Assembly: GCA_001399805.1 (NCBI GenBank) | Contig: LIHJ01000047.1 | Location: 1 to 17,754, forward strand | Length of the DNA: 17,754 nt | Reading direction: 5' to 3' | Source: Candidatus Bathyarchaeota archaeon BA1 | GTDB lineage: Archaea; Thermoproteota; Bathyarchaeia; Bathyarchaeales; Bathyarchaeaceae | Part shown: positions 131-15,503 of the stretch, one piece after another | How positions within the stretch are numbered: position 1 is the stretch's first letter | Layout: each line of letters begins with the position of its first letter | Position numbers and translations under genes: made by a program | The notes under the pieces: model-generated | What the model saw: the letters and a program-made list of their open reading frames with translations, nothing else | What the model was told of the DNA's origin: nothing | Database searches by the model: none

Positions 131-979
131 ATGGCCACCAAAACATATCACCGAAAATCTCTAGTTCTCATAGCAACTTCCATGTGCGCAGCTCTTTATG
201 CTATCGGAGCCTATGCAACTGCATACATTCCGTCGCCGTGGGGTTTCGGGCAATTTAGGCCCGCGGTGGTCATTCCTGCTTTCTTTGCCACAGTATTTGG
301 TCCATGGCCAGCGGCAGTAGGCGCAGCTATAGGCACACTAACCGCGGATTCAGTTAAACAGGGAGCCCTTCACTTCGGAAGCCTAATCGCTGCGGTGCCT
401 GGCAACTTCATAGGTTTCTATCTGTTTGGCTATATCGTTAAAAGGTTTAGTTGGAGCCGGTTCATCCTAGCCTCAAACTTGACGCTCACCGTCGCCAACT
501 TAATAGTTGCCTTTCTTTACGTTTTCGCTTATAGATGGCTTTACTTAAGCGCATACGTGAACCCCGACTTTACGACTCTGGCATTCATATCTATTGGTCT
601 TACCATCTGGTGGTTTGTTACCATGCTTCCTTTCGTCTTATTGATCACTCCCCTTCTAATTAGAGCAGCCGCAATGGCCGTGCCTTCAATTGTATCCGAA
701 GACTTAAGAACATACAGCCTAAGAAAAGAACTTCCAAAAACAACGTTCAGTTTAGCTATGCTGGCTCCAGGAATCATAATGCTCCTCATGGGTTTAGTTT
801 CAACAACCTATGCCGATTTCGGAAAACTGTTCTCCCTAAAAGGCGCCACACTGACTGCTATCCAAATCCTCTTCTACGGAGGTGGCGTTGTCCTATCTGC
901 TTTAGGCGTCATGATATACACTGGGCAAAAGTTTCTTTGGCAAAAACCTCCTATAAAAGGGGCTGAAAAGAAACGCTAG
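131..979 (+). CDS. ECF-type transporter S-component-like integral membrane protein
   Basis: This 282-residue protein is very hydrophobic, with about six or seven predicted membrane helices (roughly residues 8-30, 44-64, 80-100, 112-134, 150-176, 205-226 and 240-262). The early segment FRPAVVIPAFFATVFGPWPA followed by a Gly/Ala-rich helix resembles substrate-binding (S) components of energy-coupling-factor vitamin transporters, which sit in the membrane and need a shared T component and ATPases encoded elsewhere. The substrate cannot be read from the sequence. The stop lies 9 bp before coaD on the same strand, so the two are probably co-transcribed, and a pantothenate-type or other coenzyme precursor is an inference from that context only. 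The ATG at 131 has GTGA 6 nt upstream, and a TATA-like TTATTTAAG lies near 76-84. The short tail is basic and probably cytoplasmic. Confidence 0.72.
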   Translation: MATKTYHRKSLVLIATSMCAALYAIGAYATAYIPSPWGFGQFRPAVVIPAFFATVFGPWPAAVGAAIGTLTADSVKQGALHFGSLIAAVPGNFIGFYLFGYIVKRFSWSRFILASNLTLTVANLIVAFLYVFAYRWLYLSAYVNPDFTTLAFISIGLTIWWFVTMLPFVLLITPLLIRAAAMAVPSIVSEDLRTYSLRKELPKTTFSLAMLAPGIIMLLMGLVSTTYADFGKLFSLKGATLTAIQILFYGGGVVLSALGVMIYTGQKFLWQKPPIKGAEKKR

Positions 980-3964: not shown

Positions 3965-4234
3965 ATGGAATGGAAAGTCAAAATATTAGAAAATGGTAGG
4001 ATTACGATACCTCAGGAACTAAGGGACCGTTTAGGTCTCAAAAAGGGCGATGAAGTCAAATTCTTGTTAGAGGGAGGAGCAATTTGCCTAGTTACCCCTA
4101 AACTTGAGGAGGATATCGTGGAGAGAACCAGGGGGTTTTTGAGGGGGATTGAACCCGAGTTAACTCCTGAAGAGTTGGAGGAAGCCTTCCTCACAGCCGT
4201 GGCGTCAAAGATTAAAGCTAAAGAGGAAGCCTAG
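3965..4234 (+). CDS. AbrB/SpoVT-type antitoxin (VapB-like), now without an intact partner
   Basis: The 89-residue protein has a swapped-hairpin AbrB DNA-binding domain at residues 1-45: VKILENGRITIPQELRDRLG followed by LKKGDEVKF. A charged helical tail (about 50-89) would normally wrap the toxin. The ATG at 3965 has GAGGGT 4 nt upstream. Such proteins bind their own promoter and neutralise a PIN-domain ribonuclease encoded directly downstream. Here the next codon after the stop is a TTG opening a PIN-like N-terminus that ends after 40 codons, so the antitoxin appears orphaned. It may survive as a regulator or may neutralise other toxins; both are inference. Confidence 0.85.
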   Translation: MEWKVKILENGRITIPQELRDRLGLKKGDEVKFLLEGGAICLVTPKLEEDIVERTRGFLRGIEPELTPEELEEAFLTAVASKIKAKEEA

Positions 4235-7876: not shown

Positions 7877-8641
7877 CTACAGCCCTTCCGACGAGTTCCA
7901 TAAATATTGGAAATAATCCTTGGCAAACCTCACCAGGCCCATATGATCCGACCATAAGACGAGGGTTGGCTTCTCCTCGCCGAGAAGGAGCACCACTTCC
8001 TCATCATCCACGATGACGCCACCCCCAAACATATGGTCCCTCACCCTAACCTCTGCAACATTGGCTATCTTCCCTATGTCCCCTTCCTTCACATCCCTGG
8101 AGACCATGAACAGGACCCTCACACCGGTGCGTGGCAGACGCATCAACGTCGGAACGATGGACTCCACCAGCGTTTTTGTCAACATAGGAGCCGCGATCAT
8201 CAGCTCGCTCTTGGCCTTATCTAACACCTCGCGAAGCTTAGCAAGCATATTGAACTCACCACGAAGAATCCATATATCCGGTTTTTCTCGGATCTCCCTC
8301 CTCTCATAGAGGGGCTGTAGCTCGCTCAGGAAGGCTTGTTCCCAGGATTTTGTCATGTTCTCTAACCTTAGTTTGGCCGCTCCCAGCGCTTCCGAAGGTG
8401 ATCTGGGGTAGTATCGTTTGGGTCTCCCCTCTTCGGTTTCGATCCACCCCTTTCTGTCCAGGGAATTCAGGGTTTCATAGATCTTGGAGTAGGGCACATT
8501 CGCATACTCGCTGAGTTGGTTGGCGGTTACCGCCCCCTTCTCGATTAGGGAAAGGTATGCTCGAGCCTCGTACTCGGTTAGTCCAAGCTCATGGAGGATC
8601 CTCTTGGTTTTCTCACTTATGGGTGTGGTCAACCCTTTCAC
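7877..8641 (-). CDS. TrmB-family transcriptional regulator
   Basis: The 254-residue protein has an N-terminal winged helix (about 12-75): LGLTEYEARAYLSLIEKG, then VPYSKIYETLNSLDRKGWI with the wing ETEEGRPKRYYP. A coiled linker helix follows (about 85-110). The C-terminal domain (about 115-250) contains PDIWILRGEFNML and SELMIAAPML, the PLD-like effector domain seen in many TrmB proteins. Family members bind small ligands, often sugars, and repress or activate nearby genes. The GTG start at 8641 is set by GGGTGAAAG. It is divergent from the Tes homologue with about 80 bp between, and a perfect 16-bp palindrome lies 8 bp upstream of its start, so autoregulation plus control of the neighbour is likely. 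The ligand is unknown. Confidence 0.88.
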   Translation of the reverse strand: MKGLTTPISEKTKRILHELGLTEYEARAYLSLIEKGAVTANQLSEYANVPYSKIYETLNSLDRKGWIETEEGRPKRYYPRSPSEALGAAKLRLENMTKSWEQAFLSELQPLYERREIREKPDIWILRGEFNMLAKLREVLDKAKSELMIAAPMLTKTLVESIVPTLMRLPRTGVRVLFMVSRDVKEGDIGKIANVAEVRVRDHMFGGGVIVDDEEVVLLLGEEKPTLVLWSDHMGLVRFAKDYFQYLWNSSEGL

Positions 8642-8721: not shown

Positions 8722-10203
8722 TTGGAAGTGATCAAGGAAACGAAGAGTATATGTCCAGAGTGCCTCAAGGTTTTGAGCGCTATAGTATTTGAAAAGGACA
8801 ATAAGGTGTACATGAGGAAGGAGTGCCCAGAGCACGGGGAGTTCCAGGACGTATACTGGTCGGATTATGAGCAATATGAACGAGCTGAGCAATTCAGACA
8901 TGAAGGTGATGGACTTCGAAATCCGCGAACACAAAGCAAGCAGGGATGCCCATACGACTGCGGAATATGCCCTCAGCACAAGTCGCACACCGCATTGGCC
9001 ATCATCGACGTGAGCAATCGATGCAATCTTCGTTGCCCGGTTTGTTTTGCAACGGCCGGAACCACCGGATACGTTTACGAGCCATCCAAGAAGGAAATTT
9101 GGGAGATGCTGGAGAATCTTAGGCGCAACGATCCCGTGCCCGCAACGGCGCTCCAGTATTCAGGAGGAGAGCCCACTATTCGAGAAGACCTTTTAGATCT
9201 TATCCGCATGGCGAAGGAGGTCGGCTTTCGGCACGTGGAGGTCAACACGAATGGTCTCCGACTTGCACAGAGCGTTGATTATTGTCGAGGCTTGATGGAG
9301 GCTGGGTTGAGCACGGTGTATCTACAGTTTGATGGTGTCACATCCGATGTTTATCAATTCACGCGTGGGTGTGACCTACTGGACATAAAATTGAAGGCCA
9401 TTGAAAATTGTCGTAAAGCAGGGGTCGATAGCATTGTATTGGTGGTCACGCTCGTTAAGGGGGTCAATGATCATCAGATTGGAGACATCATCCGATTCGC
9501 CATTCAGAACTTCGATGTGGTCAGATGCGTGAATGTTCAACCAGTTTCCCTTTGCGGCAGAATCCCTGAGCGAGAAAGGGAGAAGATGCGCATAACCATC
9601 CCCGACTTCATGAGGCTCTGCGAGGAGCAAACCAACGGGAAGATCAAGGTTTCGGATTTTTATCCTGTTCCAACAGTGGTTCCGGTCTCTCGTGCCGTTG
9701 GCGCTCTGAAGAATCGGAGGTATGTGGAGTTTACGGCCCATCCTCATTGTGGCATGTCCACCTTCATCTTTGTTGAGGATGACGAAATCGTTCCGATCAC
9801 CCACTACGGCAATGTGAATGGGTTCATCAGGGCGATGGATGGGGTTTACGAGGAAGCTGTGAAAGGGCATGAGAGCAGGGCCAAACTGCGGCTTATCGGC
9901 GCCATGCGCCACGTGAAGTTTGGCATGCTGAGAAAGTATGTTTGGCCCATATTGAAGACGGGAACCTATGAGGCCTTGGGCAAACTCCACATGAGGATGC
10001 TGATGGTCTCAGCCATGCACTTCATGGACCCCTACAACTTCGATTTGGAGAGGGTTCAGCGATGCTGCATACACTATGCGGTTCCAGACGGTAGAATCAT
10101 TCCATTTTGCACCATGAATTCGATTCATAGGGCGAAGATCGAGGAAAAGCTCGGGATTCCTCTGGATGAGTGGAGGAAGAAGCATAAGGAAGAGGTTTTA
10201 TAA
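8722..10203 (+). CDS. tes: Radical SAM tetraether lipid synthase (Tes/MJ0619 family)
   Basis: This 493-residue protein matches the Tes family, which joins the phytanyl tails of two archaeol lipids to form membrane-spanning tetraethers (GDGT) by S-adenosylmethionine radical chemistry. The radical SAM cluster motif is CNLRCPVC (C101, C105, C108), with SGGEP at 147-151. Extra metal-site cysteines fit the family: C11/C14 and C35 (CPEC...CPEHG, rubredoxin-like), C76/C80/C83 (GCPYDCGICPQH), C343, C448/C449 and C463. TVYLQFDGVTSDVY and VNVQPVSLCGRIPE are family hallmarks. Length is close to the usual 500 or so. The TTG start at 8722 has GGTG about 6 nt upstream. Archaea often carry paralogues, so a macrocyclic-archaeol or other coupling role cannot be excluded. 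Control by the divergent TrmB gene is inferred. Confidence 0.88.
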   Translation: MEVIKETKSICPECLKVLSAIVFEKDNKVYMRKECPEHGEFQDVYWSDYEQYERAEQFRHEGDGLRNPRTQSKQGCPYDCGICPQHKSHTALAIIDVSNRCNLRCPVCFATAGTTGYVYEPSKKEIWEMLENLRRNDPVPATALQYSGGEPTIREDLLDLIRMAKEVGFRHVEVNTNGLRLAQSVDYCRGLMEAGLSTVYLQFDGVTSDVYQFTRGCDLLDIKLKAIENCRKAGVDSIVLVVTLVKGVNDHQIGDIIRFAIQNFDVVRCVNVQPVSLCGRIPEREREKMRITIPDFMRLCEEQTNGKIKVSDFYPVPTVVPVSRAVGALKNRRYVEFTAHPHCGMSTFIFVEDDEIVPITHYGNVNGFIRAMDGVYEEAVKGHESRAKLRLIGAMRHVKFGMLRKYVWPILKTGTYEALGKLHMRMLMVSAMHFMDPYNFDLERVQRCCIHYAVPDGRIIPFCTMNSIHRAKIEEKLGIPLDEWRKKHKEEVL

Positions 10204-12961: not shown

Positions 12962-14323
12962 CTATCTTTTTGGAAAGCGACGCCTCAATATGCTCTCAAG
13001 CGTTGGTGTGCCAATCTCCTGAAGTTCATATTTGGCTCGTACTGCGGGCTTGTTGAGGAGCAACACCCGACGCAGGTCGATGGGGGTTCCGATAACGACC
13101 ACATCGCACTGCGTCATATTGATGGTCTGCTCCAGCTCGTTTATCTGCTCTTTCCCATAGCCCATGGCGGGGAGAACAGCCCCAAGATGTCCATAATCCC
13201 TAAATGTGCGTTTGATGGAGCCAACGGCGTAGGGGCGTGGATCCACCATCTCGCTCGCCCCAAGCCTCTCTGCGGCGATCGTTCCTGCACCATACGCCAT
13301 GTTGCCATGAGTTACGGTTGGACCATCCTCCACCACCAAGACTCGCTTTCCCCTGATGAGTTTGGGGTTGTCCACCGTTATGGGTGAAGCCGCCTCTACG
13401 ATGGTTGCGTCACGATTCACCATCCATATGTTCCTTCGAACGGTCTCAATGTCCCTAGGGTCCGCTGTATCCACCTTATTAATGATCACTACGTCAGCCA
13501 TCCTTAGGTTCATCTCTCCGGGATGGTAGGTCATTTCGTGACCTGCCCTGTGGGGGTCCGCCACTACGATATGCAGGTCGGATATGAAGAAGGGCACGTC
13601 GTTGTTGCCCCCATCCCAAACGATGATGTCCGCCTCCTTTTCAGCCTCCCTCAAAATCCTCTCATAATCAACCCCAGCATATACGACGATTCCATTGTCG
13701 ATGTGCGGTTCGTATTCCTCTCGCTCCTCGATGGTGCACTCGTGTTTGTCCAGGTCCTCGTAGGATGCAAACCTTTGGCACACTTGTTTACGTAAATCTC
13801 CATAGGGCATCGGATGCCGCACAACCACCACATGAAAGCCCCTTTTCCTCAGGATGCTGCAAACTCTCCTCGATGTTTGGCTCTTCCCGGACCCCGTTCT
13901 AACTGCACAAATCGAAACCACGGGAACCTTAGCCTTCAACATGGTGGTGGATGGGCCCATCAACCTAAAATCGGCCCCGCTCGCTAGCGCTATAGACGCC
14001 TTATGCATAACGTATTCATGCGATACATCACTATACGCGAAAACTACTTGATCCACGTTATGTTCCTTAATTAAGGTCGGCAGTTCTTCTTCAGAATGGA
14101 TTGGTATGCCCTCCGGATATCTTGACCCAGCCAGCTCCGGTGGGTACACCCTATTCTCAATTCCAGGTATCTGCGCGGCGGTAAACGCCACCACCTCATA
14201 CTGATCATTGTTTCTGAAGTAGACGTTGAAGTTATGGAACTCGCGGACCTAAGCGCTAGGTCTATCGCGTCCCGCAGCACCTAAAATTATCACTCGAATA
14301 TGTTCAGAATCGATGTTTATCAC
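12962..14323 (-). CDS. Cyclic 2,3-diphosphoglycerate synthetase-like GTPase, interrupted by a 24-nt intron
   Basis: The spliced product is about 445 residues (exon 1: 14323-14264; exon 2: 14239-12962). It matches the enzyme family that makes cyclic 2,3-diphosphoglycerate, a thermoprotective solute and phosphate store of some archaea, using ATP. Exon 1 ends VIILGAAGRD and exon 2 begins FHNFNVYFRNN, together giving the family N-terminus. Then come FTAAQIPGIENRVYPPELAG, AYSDVSHEYVMHKA, Walker A RTGSGKSQ (GKS at about 138-140), VVRHPMPYGDL, ADIIVWDGGNND, NKVDTADP and VLPAMGYG. In the unspliced gene a TAG at 14251-14249 would end translation after about 24 codons. The start is unclear: a perfect GGAGGTGAT (14327-14319) is present, but the only standard in-frame starts are GTG 14323 inside it and GTG 14293 too far downstream; ATC 14314 has ideal spacing. 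A TnpB element lies directly upstream. Confidence 0.85.
14240..14263 (-). other. 24-nt bulge-helix-bulge intron in the cyclic-DPG synthetase gene
   Basis: In the minus-strand RNA: outer helix GGA:UCC, central helix CGCG:CGCG (4 bp), 3-nt bulge AUA on the 5' strand, 6-bp hairpin GACCUA:UAGGUC with loop GCGCU, then a 3-nt bulge AGU on the 3' strand. This is the full hBHBh' substrate of the archaeal tRNA splicing endonuclease. Cutting after the second base of each bulge (AU^A, AG^U) removes 14263 to 14240. Joined codons read GGA CGC GAT TTC CAT AAC, i.e. GRDFHN, exactly the family sequence. The insert carries an in-frame TAG. Geometry and protein evidence agree to the base; splicing itself is not shown. 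Confidence 0.85.
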
Positions 14324-14344
14324 CTCCCCTTTTCAGAATTGTTT

Positions 14345-14500
14345 GACACTCTCCTCGACTGAAGTCGGGAGATTCTCTGGTAGCTCCCTTGCTACGCACG
14401 GTTCATCACTCCAGAGTTTGGGCTGTGTCCAATGCGGCCCTGCTCTCCCCGATGTACGAGGAGAACCTCTCCGCTATGTTTATGGCTCCGTTAAGATCGG
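14345..14500 (-). ncRNA. Putative omega RNA (reRNA) scaffold at the tnpB 3' end and right end
   Basis: TnpB guide RNAs overlap the 3' end of tnpB and run to the right end of the element. Here the minus strand downstream of the tnpB stop contains a near-perfect hairpin (CTCCCGACT / AGTCGAGGAG, 14351-14371) and an upstream complementary GGGAG/CTCCC pair that could form a pseudoknot, the usual layout. The guide would be the sequence just beyond the right end, i.e. the leader of the synthetase gene. Both borders are estimates. Confidence 0.5.
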
Positions 14501-15503
14501 CGTTGAAGTGGTCCAGTCTGCAATTTGTGCACTTGAACCTGGCTTGGCTGAGCCTTTCGCCTTCTCTTCCGCATCTGTGGCAAGTCTTGGACGTCCAAGC
14601 CTCGCTAATCTTGTAGACCAATATGCCTTCCCATAATGCTTTGTAGGTTATCATTTGTGTTAAGTGATAGTACGGCATATGAGATACTATGCGGTTCATT
14701 CTTCCGCCTTTGTCTTTGACTTTATCTCTAATGCCCTTCAAATCTCCTACGATAATGACTGCGTTAAGCCTCCTAGCTTCACTGACAATCCCTTTTGATA
14801 TCTTATGAAGAATAGCGTCCACTTTCCTTTTCTCCCTATGTCCAATCCTCTTGATAACTCTTAGCAATTTCCTCTTTCCAAGCCTCCTACGGAGCCATGC
14901 ATAGTGGCGCCTTATGCCACGAACCTTTTTGCCGTAGAACTTAGGATTCTTCATCACGCCGTCCGCAATCACCACCGATGTTGCGATGCGGCGTTCACCC
15001 AAGTCTACGGCCAAGATGGTGGATGGAGGTTGTGTTTGCCTAAGCTCAACCTCCTTCATCACCGTTATGTGGAGCGACCAGTGATCGCCTTTCCATAGAA
15101 GTTTCCCCTCCCTTATACTTAAAGATAGGAGATGCTCTTGGTTACGGGGGAGTTGAATTGGGACCTTTATTCTGCCCCTCACATGATGAACTGGGATCTT
15201 CACCCAGAACTTAGCGAGCTTGTTCTCAGTCTTTCTTATATTAAAAACGTCTCTGCGTAGGATCATGGGATACTCCTTATTTTTTGGTCCCTTACCGTTC
15301 TGTTTTCTGACCTTCCTCAGCAGTCTATGGGCTTGCTGTTTAGTTGCGGAGTAGAGGGGCGCATCGAAGCCCCGCAAACAGGCTTGAAAATTGTCATACT
15401 CCTCCCTGAGCAATGCCCCCTTAATCCTTGTTAAAGCGAATATCCTCGCCTTAACCGTCTTTCTAACGATCATTTTCTGCTCTGGATTGTTTATAGTCCA
15501 CAT
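14406..15503 (-). CDS. tnpB: TnpB RNA-guided endonuclease (IS605 OrfB family)
   Basis: The 365-residue protein has the TnpB layout: N-terminal OrfB helix-turn-helix region (about 11-120), RuvC-I with D167 in ILAVDLGERRIATS, a basic bridge-helix-like region (about 195-240), RuvC-II at 250-258 (IIVGDLKGI), a zinc ribbon with C308, C311, C325 and C328, and RuvC-III with D336 in FNADLNGAINIA. TnpB cuts DNA matching its omega RNA guide and helps retain the element. The normal RuvC-II glutamate is Gly253 here; Glu301 (ISEAWTSKTC), 48 residues on, is a candidate replacement. The protein is otherwise full length and may be active. ATG 15473 (residue 11) is an alternative start that better fits the family N-terminus (MIVRKTVKARIF). 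Confidence 0.9.
   Translation of the reverse strand: MWTINNPEQKMIVRKTVKARIFALTRIKGALLREEYDNFQACLRGFDAPLYSATKQQAHRLLRKVRKQNGKGPKNKEYPMILRRDVFNIRKTENKLAKFWVKIPVHHVRGRIKVPIQLPRNQEHLLSLSIREGKLLWKGDHWSLHITVMKEVELRQTQPPSTILAVDLGERRIATSVVIADGVMKNPKFYGKKVRGIRRHYAWLRRRLGKRKLLRVIKRIGHREKRKVDAILHKISKGIVSEARRLNAVIIVGDLKGIRDKVKDKGGRMNRIVSHMPYYHLTQMITYKALWEGILVYKISEAWTSKTCHRCGREGERLSQARFKCTNCRLDHFNADLNGAINIAERFSSYIGESRAALDTAQTLE

Follow-up and report, generated by a model that had tools for sequence, protein, structure and literature searches.

A predicted 24-nt bulge-helix-bulge intron in the coding frame of an archaeal cyclic-2,3-diphosphoglycerate-synthetase-like gene

In Desulfurococcales and Sulfolobales, the cbf5 pre-mRNA carries an intron of 16 to 44 bp, which in these crenarchaeal genes splits the codon of the catalytic Asp after its first letter (PMC2738675). 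The 5' UTR of HVO_1309 in Haloferax volcanii contains a bulge-helix-bulge (BHB) element, with a central fragment of 47 nt, that is cleaved by EndA in vitro (PMC7714728), and putative introns of 12 bp, whose splicing is equally putative, were proposed in archaeal virus genes (Peng et al., via PMC2738675). According to PMC7714728 (2020), the cbf5 mRNA contained the only further archaeal BHB intron reported before its leader element. The open-licence literature, to which subscription papers mostly do not belong, shows in the excerpts covered no coding-frame BHB intron other than that of cbf5 and the viral candidates, and no such intron from Bathyarchaeia. The original prediction held that an intron as small as the one described here would be unusual in a metabolic GTPase gene and possibly undescribed.

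The window, i.e., the whole stretch of 17,754 nt that we analysed, contains an interrupted cyclic-2,3-diphosphoglycerate-synthetase-like (cDPG-synthetase-like) gene at 12962-14323 on the minus strand. As first described, 24 extra nt (14240-14263) with an in-frame TAG (14249-14251) separate GAAGRD from FHNFN, and letters and coordinates proved exact when re-read. The unspliced frame reads VIILGAAGRD-RPSA*VRE-FHNFN and is broken by the TAG; removal of the insert gives an open frame of 435 residues. The predicted 5' exon (14264-14293) starts at GTG 14293, with GTG 14323 as an alternative, and encodes VIILGAAGRD. The predicted 3' exon (12962-14239), cDPG-synthetase-like by homology and fold match, runs from FHNFN to the stop and includes a P-loop-like RTGSGKS. 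We consider it highly probable that the 24 nt are a pre-mRNA intron spliced by EndA and RtcB. EndA would cut each 3-nt bulge of a BHB after its second base (14264/14263 and 14240/14239), RtcB would ligate the two exons, and translation would then yield the intact cDPG-synthetase-like protein.

The predicted intron resembles the crenarchaeal cbf5 intron in having a BHB at its borders, in the cuts between the second and third base of the bulges and in breaking a coding frame (PMC2738675), and its 24 nt fall within the 16-44 nt range given there. Unlike the cbf5 intron, it lies in another gene and another codon, which is not that of the catalytic Asp. Among seven cbf5 introns that PMC2738675 added, all but two have unconventional BHBs, whereas the BHB in the window is canonical; partial cDNA backs several cbf5 introns, whereas the window intron is predicted from sequence. 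The HVO_1309 element is likewise a BHB intron of an mRNA, but it is found in the leader of a haloarchaeal transcript (PMC7714728) and not in a coding frame. The viral 12-bp putative introns are also very small inserts in coding genes, half the size of the window intron (via PMC2738675).

The whole BHB, predicted from pairing, register and a model trained on cbf5 introns, occupies 14236-14272 on the minus strand. It comprises an outer helix GGA:UCC (14270-14272 with 14236-14238), a central helix CGCG:CGCG (14266-14269 with 14242-14245), bulges AUA (14263-14265) and AGU (14239-14241) on opposite strands of the fold, an inner helix GACCUA:UAGGUC (14257-14262 with 14246-14251) and a 5-nt loop GCGCU (14252-14256). 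The intron would thus be laid out as 1 nt, the 6-bp hairpin with its 5-nt loop, the 4-nt central strand and 2 nt. The pairing of a canonical BHB, with an outer helix, a 4-bp central helix, opposed 3-nt bulges and a 6-bp hairpin, is possible exactly as it had been proposed. This is not the minimum-energy fold, for which RNAfold gives a shifted outer and central stem on the same inner hairpin.

The BHB pairing at 14236-14272 exceeds chance. A strict scan of the window (Watson-Crick pairs only; outer helix of 3, central of 4 and inner of 6; introns of 16-44 nt; both strands) had the site at 14240-14263 as its sole match on either strand, and two of 300 simulated windows contained any strict site. 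When the letters of the 44-nt segment were shuffled, with the splice sites fixed as the protein family dictates, two of 2,000,000 shuffles formed all 13 pairs again, G-U pairs being permitted. The hairpin alone is common by chance: with at most two mismatches, 66 of 200 shuffled windows have one. At the true junction, the central helix pairs in 4/4 positions, the outer in 3 and the inner in 7 (one G-U counted), and sliding the splice sites by 1-4 nt always cost at least one of the three helices. No tRNA was found in the window by ARAGORN, and no Rfam family, self-splicing group I and group II introns included, at its gathering score.

Cuts after the second base of each bulge take out exactly 24 nt and rebuild GAAGRDFHNFN. 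The original prediction held that this cut rule matches the protein family to the exact base, and proposed a family alignment and a survey of related genomes as checks. The match stood up to a new test on 120 proteins and 110 loci, together with a survey that covered 256 genomes of the class. The spliced motif is present in 120 of 120 homologs (the best 120 of 8,000 proteins scored), and relatives with homologous residues at the insert, the case that would have spoken against splicing, were absent among these 120 proteins and the 110 loci. The gene is present in 113 of the 256 genomes, of which 110 cover the insert site (all except G076, G252 and G141); none of the 110 has a stop or break there, i.e., the insert is not shared by descent among them. 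An Asp precedes the junction in 79/80 genome loci and 30/30 class loci, the latter repeating in part genomes of the 80-locus set.

A rival reading is that a small palindrome with a CGCGA repeat was recently inserted and inactivated the gene, which would leave a pseudogene or a shortened protein starting at 14194. A 5-nt direct repeat, CGCGA, does stand on both sides of the palindrome, and a lone IS200/IS605-type TnpB gene, taken here as context, lies directly upstream of the interrupted gene (14406-15503, minus strand). The two readings differ at the junction: the BHB cut leaves GAT-TTC (Asp-Phe), and removal of one CGCGA copy with the palindrome, also 24 nt, leaves GAG (Glu). The family has Asp in 120/120 proteins and 109/110 loci, and its data therefore fit the splice rule better than the scar of a simple insertion. 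The end branch of the window gene is longer than those of its four nearest kin (0.062 vs 0.031 for P0001 and 0.028-0.039 for P0002-P0004), and there is no ATG at the family start position. Against inactivation, the 3' exon is open in 425 of 425 codons and shows a pN of 0.094 vs a saturated pS of 0.78 (compared with locus L081), although further damage would not be expected if the insertion were very recent. The shortened protein would miss strand 1, helix 1 and part of strand 2, judging from the model of a homolog. We regard such an insertion as unlikely.

That model was obtained with AlphaFold for P0003, a homolog 93% identical to the window's protein, and the fold search was made on it as well. 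It was the one confident model of five (mean pLDDT of 83.9 vs 56-66 for the others), with a pLDDT of about 63 at residues 11-20. In the model, the 5' exon corresponds to strand 1 and to the turn leading into helix 1, and the junction falls at the start of helix 1, directly after strand 1. Solved cDPG synthetase (8oru, 8ork) was its first fold match, at 14-15% identity and a TM-score of 0.40-0.46, and the sequence match to cDPG synthetase reached 22.6 bits. One homolog of 80% identity bears the NCBI name cDPG synthetase, and others are named "predicted GTPase". The identity first given to the gene, cDPG synthetase, holds only in the form "cDPG-synthetase-like".

An error of assembly or sequencing would be in keeping with an insert known from a single contig, and seems very unlikely: 24 nt that form a 13-bp BHB in the right register would be an unusual form of error, and the other main reading frames of the window appear whole. 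That the TAG is read through, e.g., as pyrrolysine, with eight residues added within the motif, is barely credible even though the insert is eight codons long and in phase and one of 12 relatives encodes a PylS N-terminal domain (G065:C1:1716169-1716411), since the 120 proteins and 110 loci read uniformly lack residues at the insert, TAG ends other frames of the window (131-979, 989-1465, 3965-4234 and 7877-8641), and the BHB would be left unexplained.

For the gene in its predicted spliced form, one of three candidate starts must serve: GTG 14293, which shortens the first strand, GTG 14323, or a rare AUC after a Shine-Dalgarno-like site. This site, GGAGGTGAT, was recognised in the sequence upstream of the 5' exon (14319-14327, within the stretch 14319-14330; minus strand), by anti-SD pairing and a spacing rule. 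No ATG, GTG or TTG stands at normal spacing after it, where there is an in-frame AUC. Gene callers would start the ORF at 14194, as the original prediction had it; the loss of 35 residues that it derived from this holds only against GTG 14323, and amounts to 25 against GTG 14293.

The nearest proteins (among the best 120 of 8,000 scored) are 91-93% identical and uninterrupted. The intron looks recently gained, or else lost in the kin sampled, because these close relatives and the 110 covered genomes lack the insert. No second copy was found among the best 120 of 8,000 proteins scored, in the 256 genomes or, by an exact search for the 24 nt, in viral contigs. Several cDPG-synthetase-like genes that are split in other genomes were considered as further introns and rejected: they contain runs of N (G196, G072, G064 and G021), a frameshift with stops (G162), a single stop with no insert (G160) or a deletion with a change of frame (G018). 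G247 and G011, read alongside these, run to contig ends.

Splicing of this kind requires enzymes, and we searched 12 relatives for them. EndA was found in 11 of the 12, nine of which have two genes, and RtcB also in 11; G069 has neither, and G060 and G068 have one EndA each. In G139, one EndA is nearest to the solved chains 2cv8 and 3p1z, which we take to be crenarchaeal catalytic subunits, and retains the Tyr, His and Lys that are presumably the catalytic residues; the other EndA lacks the His. We infer that the host probably has and uses EndA and RtcB at this site, that the transcript would be spliced and that the gain of the intron would be recent. Hetero-oligomeric EndA has been tied to relaxed substrates (PMC2738675, PMC7714728) and to mRNA splicing, including that of the crenarchaeal cbf5 intron (PMC2738675). 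In fission yeast, a BHB intron in the lacZ mRNA abolished activity unless an archaeal EndA was expressed (PMC8707768).

The cbf5 gene itself appears to be interrupted in Bathyarchaeia, probably the class of the host to judge from where the window finds its matches. The Cbf5 profile TIGR00425 matches 207 of 256 class genomes, many with an internal stop or split in two. We read 41 cbf5 loci: that of the reference G074, which has no insert, and 40 (L253-L291 and that of G060) picked for a stop, a split or a partial match. In each of these 40, an insert of 17-40 nt interrupts the codon of the catalytic Asp behind its first base, e.g., G060:C1:102511-102546; this proportion is not a rate, because the loci were chosen for their interrupted matches. 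Crenarchaeal cbf5 has its known intron in the same codon. In 16 of the 40, the length of the insert is not a multiple of three, and read-through cannot rescue these. The central helix is complete in 37/40 and in 0/40 after slides of 1-3 nt, and 19/40 jointly have a central helix of 4, an outer of at least 3 and an inner of at least 4, as the window site does.

In an alignment of 26 of the 40 cbf5 introns, pairing holds in 95.8% of the cells. Of the 12 pairs, six vary on both sides (equalled in 2/500 shuffles), all of them in the central or the inner helix, and 29 cells have changes on both sides (0/500); relatedness can inflate these counts, but versions that were slid gave far lower scores. 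Pair types were no more numerous than in the shuffles (182/500), and the outer helix showed no compensation in the 26 introns. A model built from these 26, the other 14 having longer or irregular loops, matches 135/256 genomes at E 0.05 and 115/256 at E 1e-4, training genomes included and with stricter filters in use, and 133 of the 135 have a single match. At least four weak matches lie away from the genome's own cbf5 (G221, G230, G233 and G238; E 0.0026-0.045). The model ranks the window site first among its 16 matches in the window, weakly (10.0 bits, E 0.35).

The class thus has a predicted coding intron of the same build as that of the window (1 nt, hairpin, 4 nt and 2 nt), and this lends the latter independent support. 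The window site is a separate case and not a copy: the cbf5 introns are widespread in the class, whereas the cDPG-synthetase-like intron was seen once, and there is no convincing sequence kinship between them. Descent of the 24-nt intron from a cbf5 intron was rejected, the longest common word, of 9 nt, being unconvincing (72/2000 shuffles do as well).

Among relatives, the cbf5 intron is present in G060, G063 and G068. At E 1e-20, no Cbf5 match was found in G001, G061, G062, G064, G065, G066, G069 and G070, of which G069 and G070 are the two nearest genomes by the cDPG-synthetase-like gene. The next-nearest, G071 and G074, have an uninterrupted Cbf5 and no match to the model. That the closest genomes show no cbf5 intron counts against the splicing of the 24 nt. 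G001, a single contig of 1.09 Mb, has no model match either, and tblastn with Cbf5 gives a weak partial match there; in G060, the only strong model match is cbf5, a training intron. In additional genomes of the phylum, profile matches show Cbf5 with internal stops, e.g., in G570, G502, G394, G278 and G295.

A cross-genome screen of G060 and G001, which are near-complete, gave no convincing further coding intron when judged by eye. It used 1,032 and 991 query ORFs with matches, respectively, antisense shadow ORFs included, and returned 7 and 3 split alignments; a stop adjoined a gap in another 19 and 12. Genes with no homolog in the other genome are missed by this screen, cbf5 included. When G060 was scanned for BHBs under loose rules, 1,858 raw matches and 709 frame joins resulted, which we judged to be chance.

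Taken with the old cbf5 intron, the 24-nt insert inclines us, with some reserve, to the view that mRNA splicing by tRNA-splicing enzymes may be alive and growing in Bathyarchaeia, with fresh gains of 24 nt in metabolic genes that gene callers misread. If the 24 nt are spliced, this would be a second coding gene with such an intron, from a different lineage and with no relation to RNA processing, and would show that new coding introns spliced by EndA can still arise. Ordinary gene callers would miss the N-terminus of this conserved protein because of the intron. The cbf5 introns would widen the range of that intron from the two crenarchaeal orders (PMC2738675) to Bathyarchaeia, which bears on when it arose.

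Two features of the window were noted besides. Hairpin-like repeats between the TnpB gene and the interrupted gene may be the right end of the TnpB element. A gene for the tetraether lipid synthase Tes lies at 8722-10203 on the plus strand (NCBIfam model, 673 bits); in G069, too, DNA that matches it lies near the cDPG-synthetase-like gene, and the region 6508-10203 matches genomes at a DNA identity of at most 75% among the matches listed.
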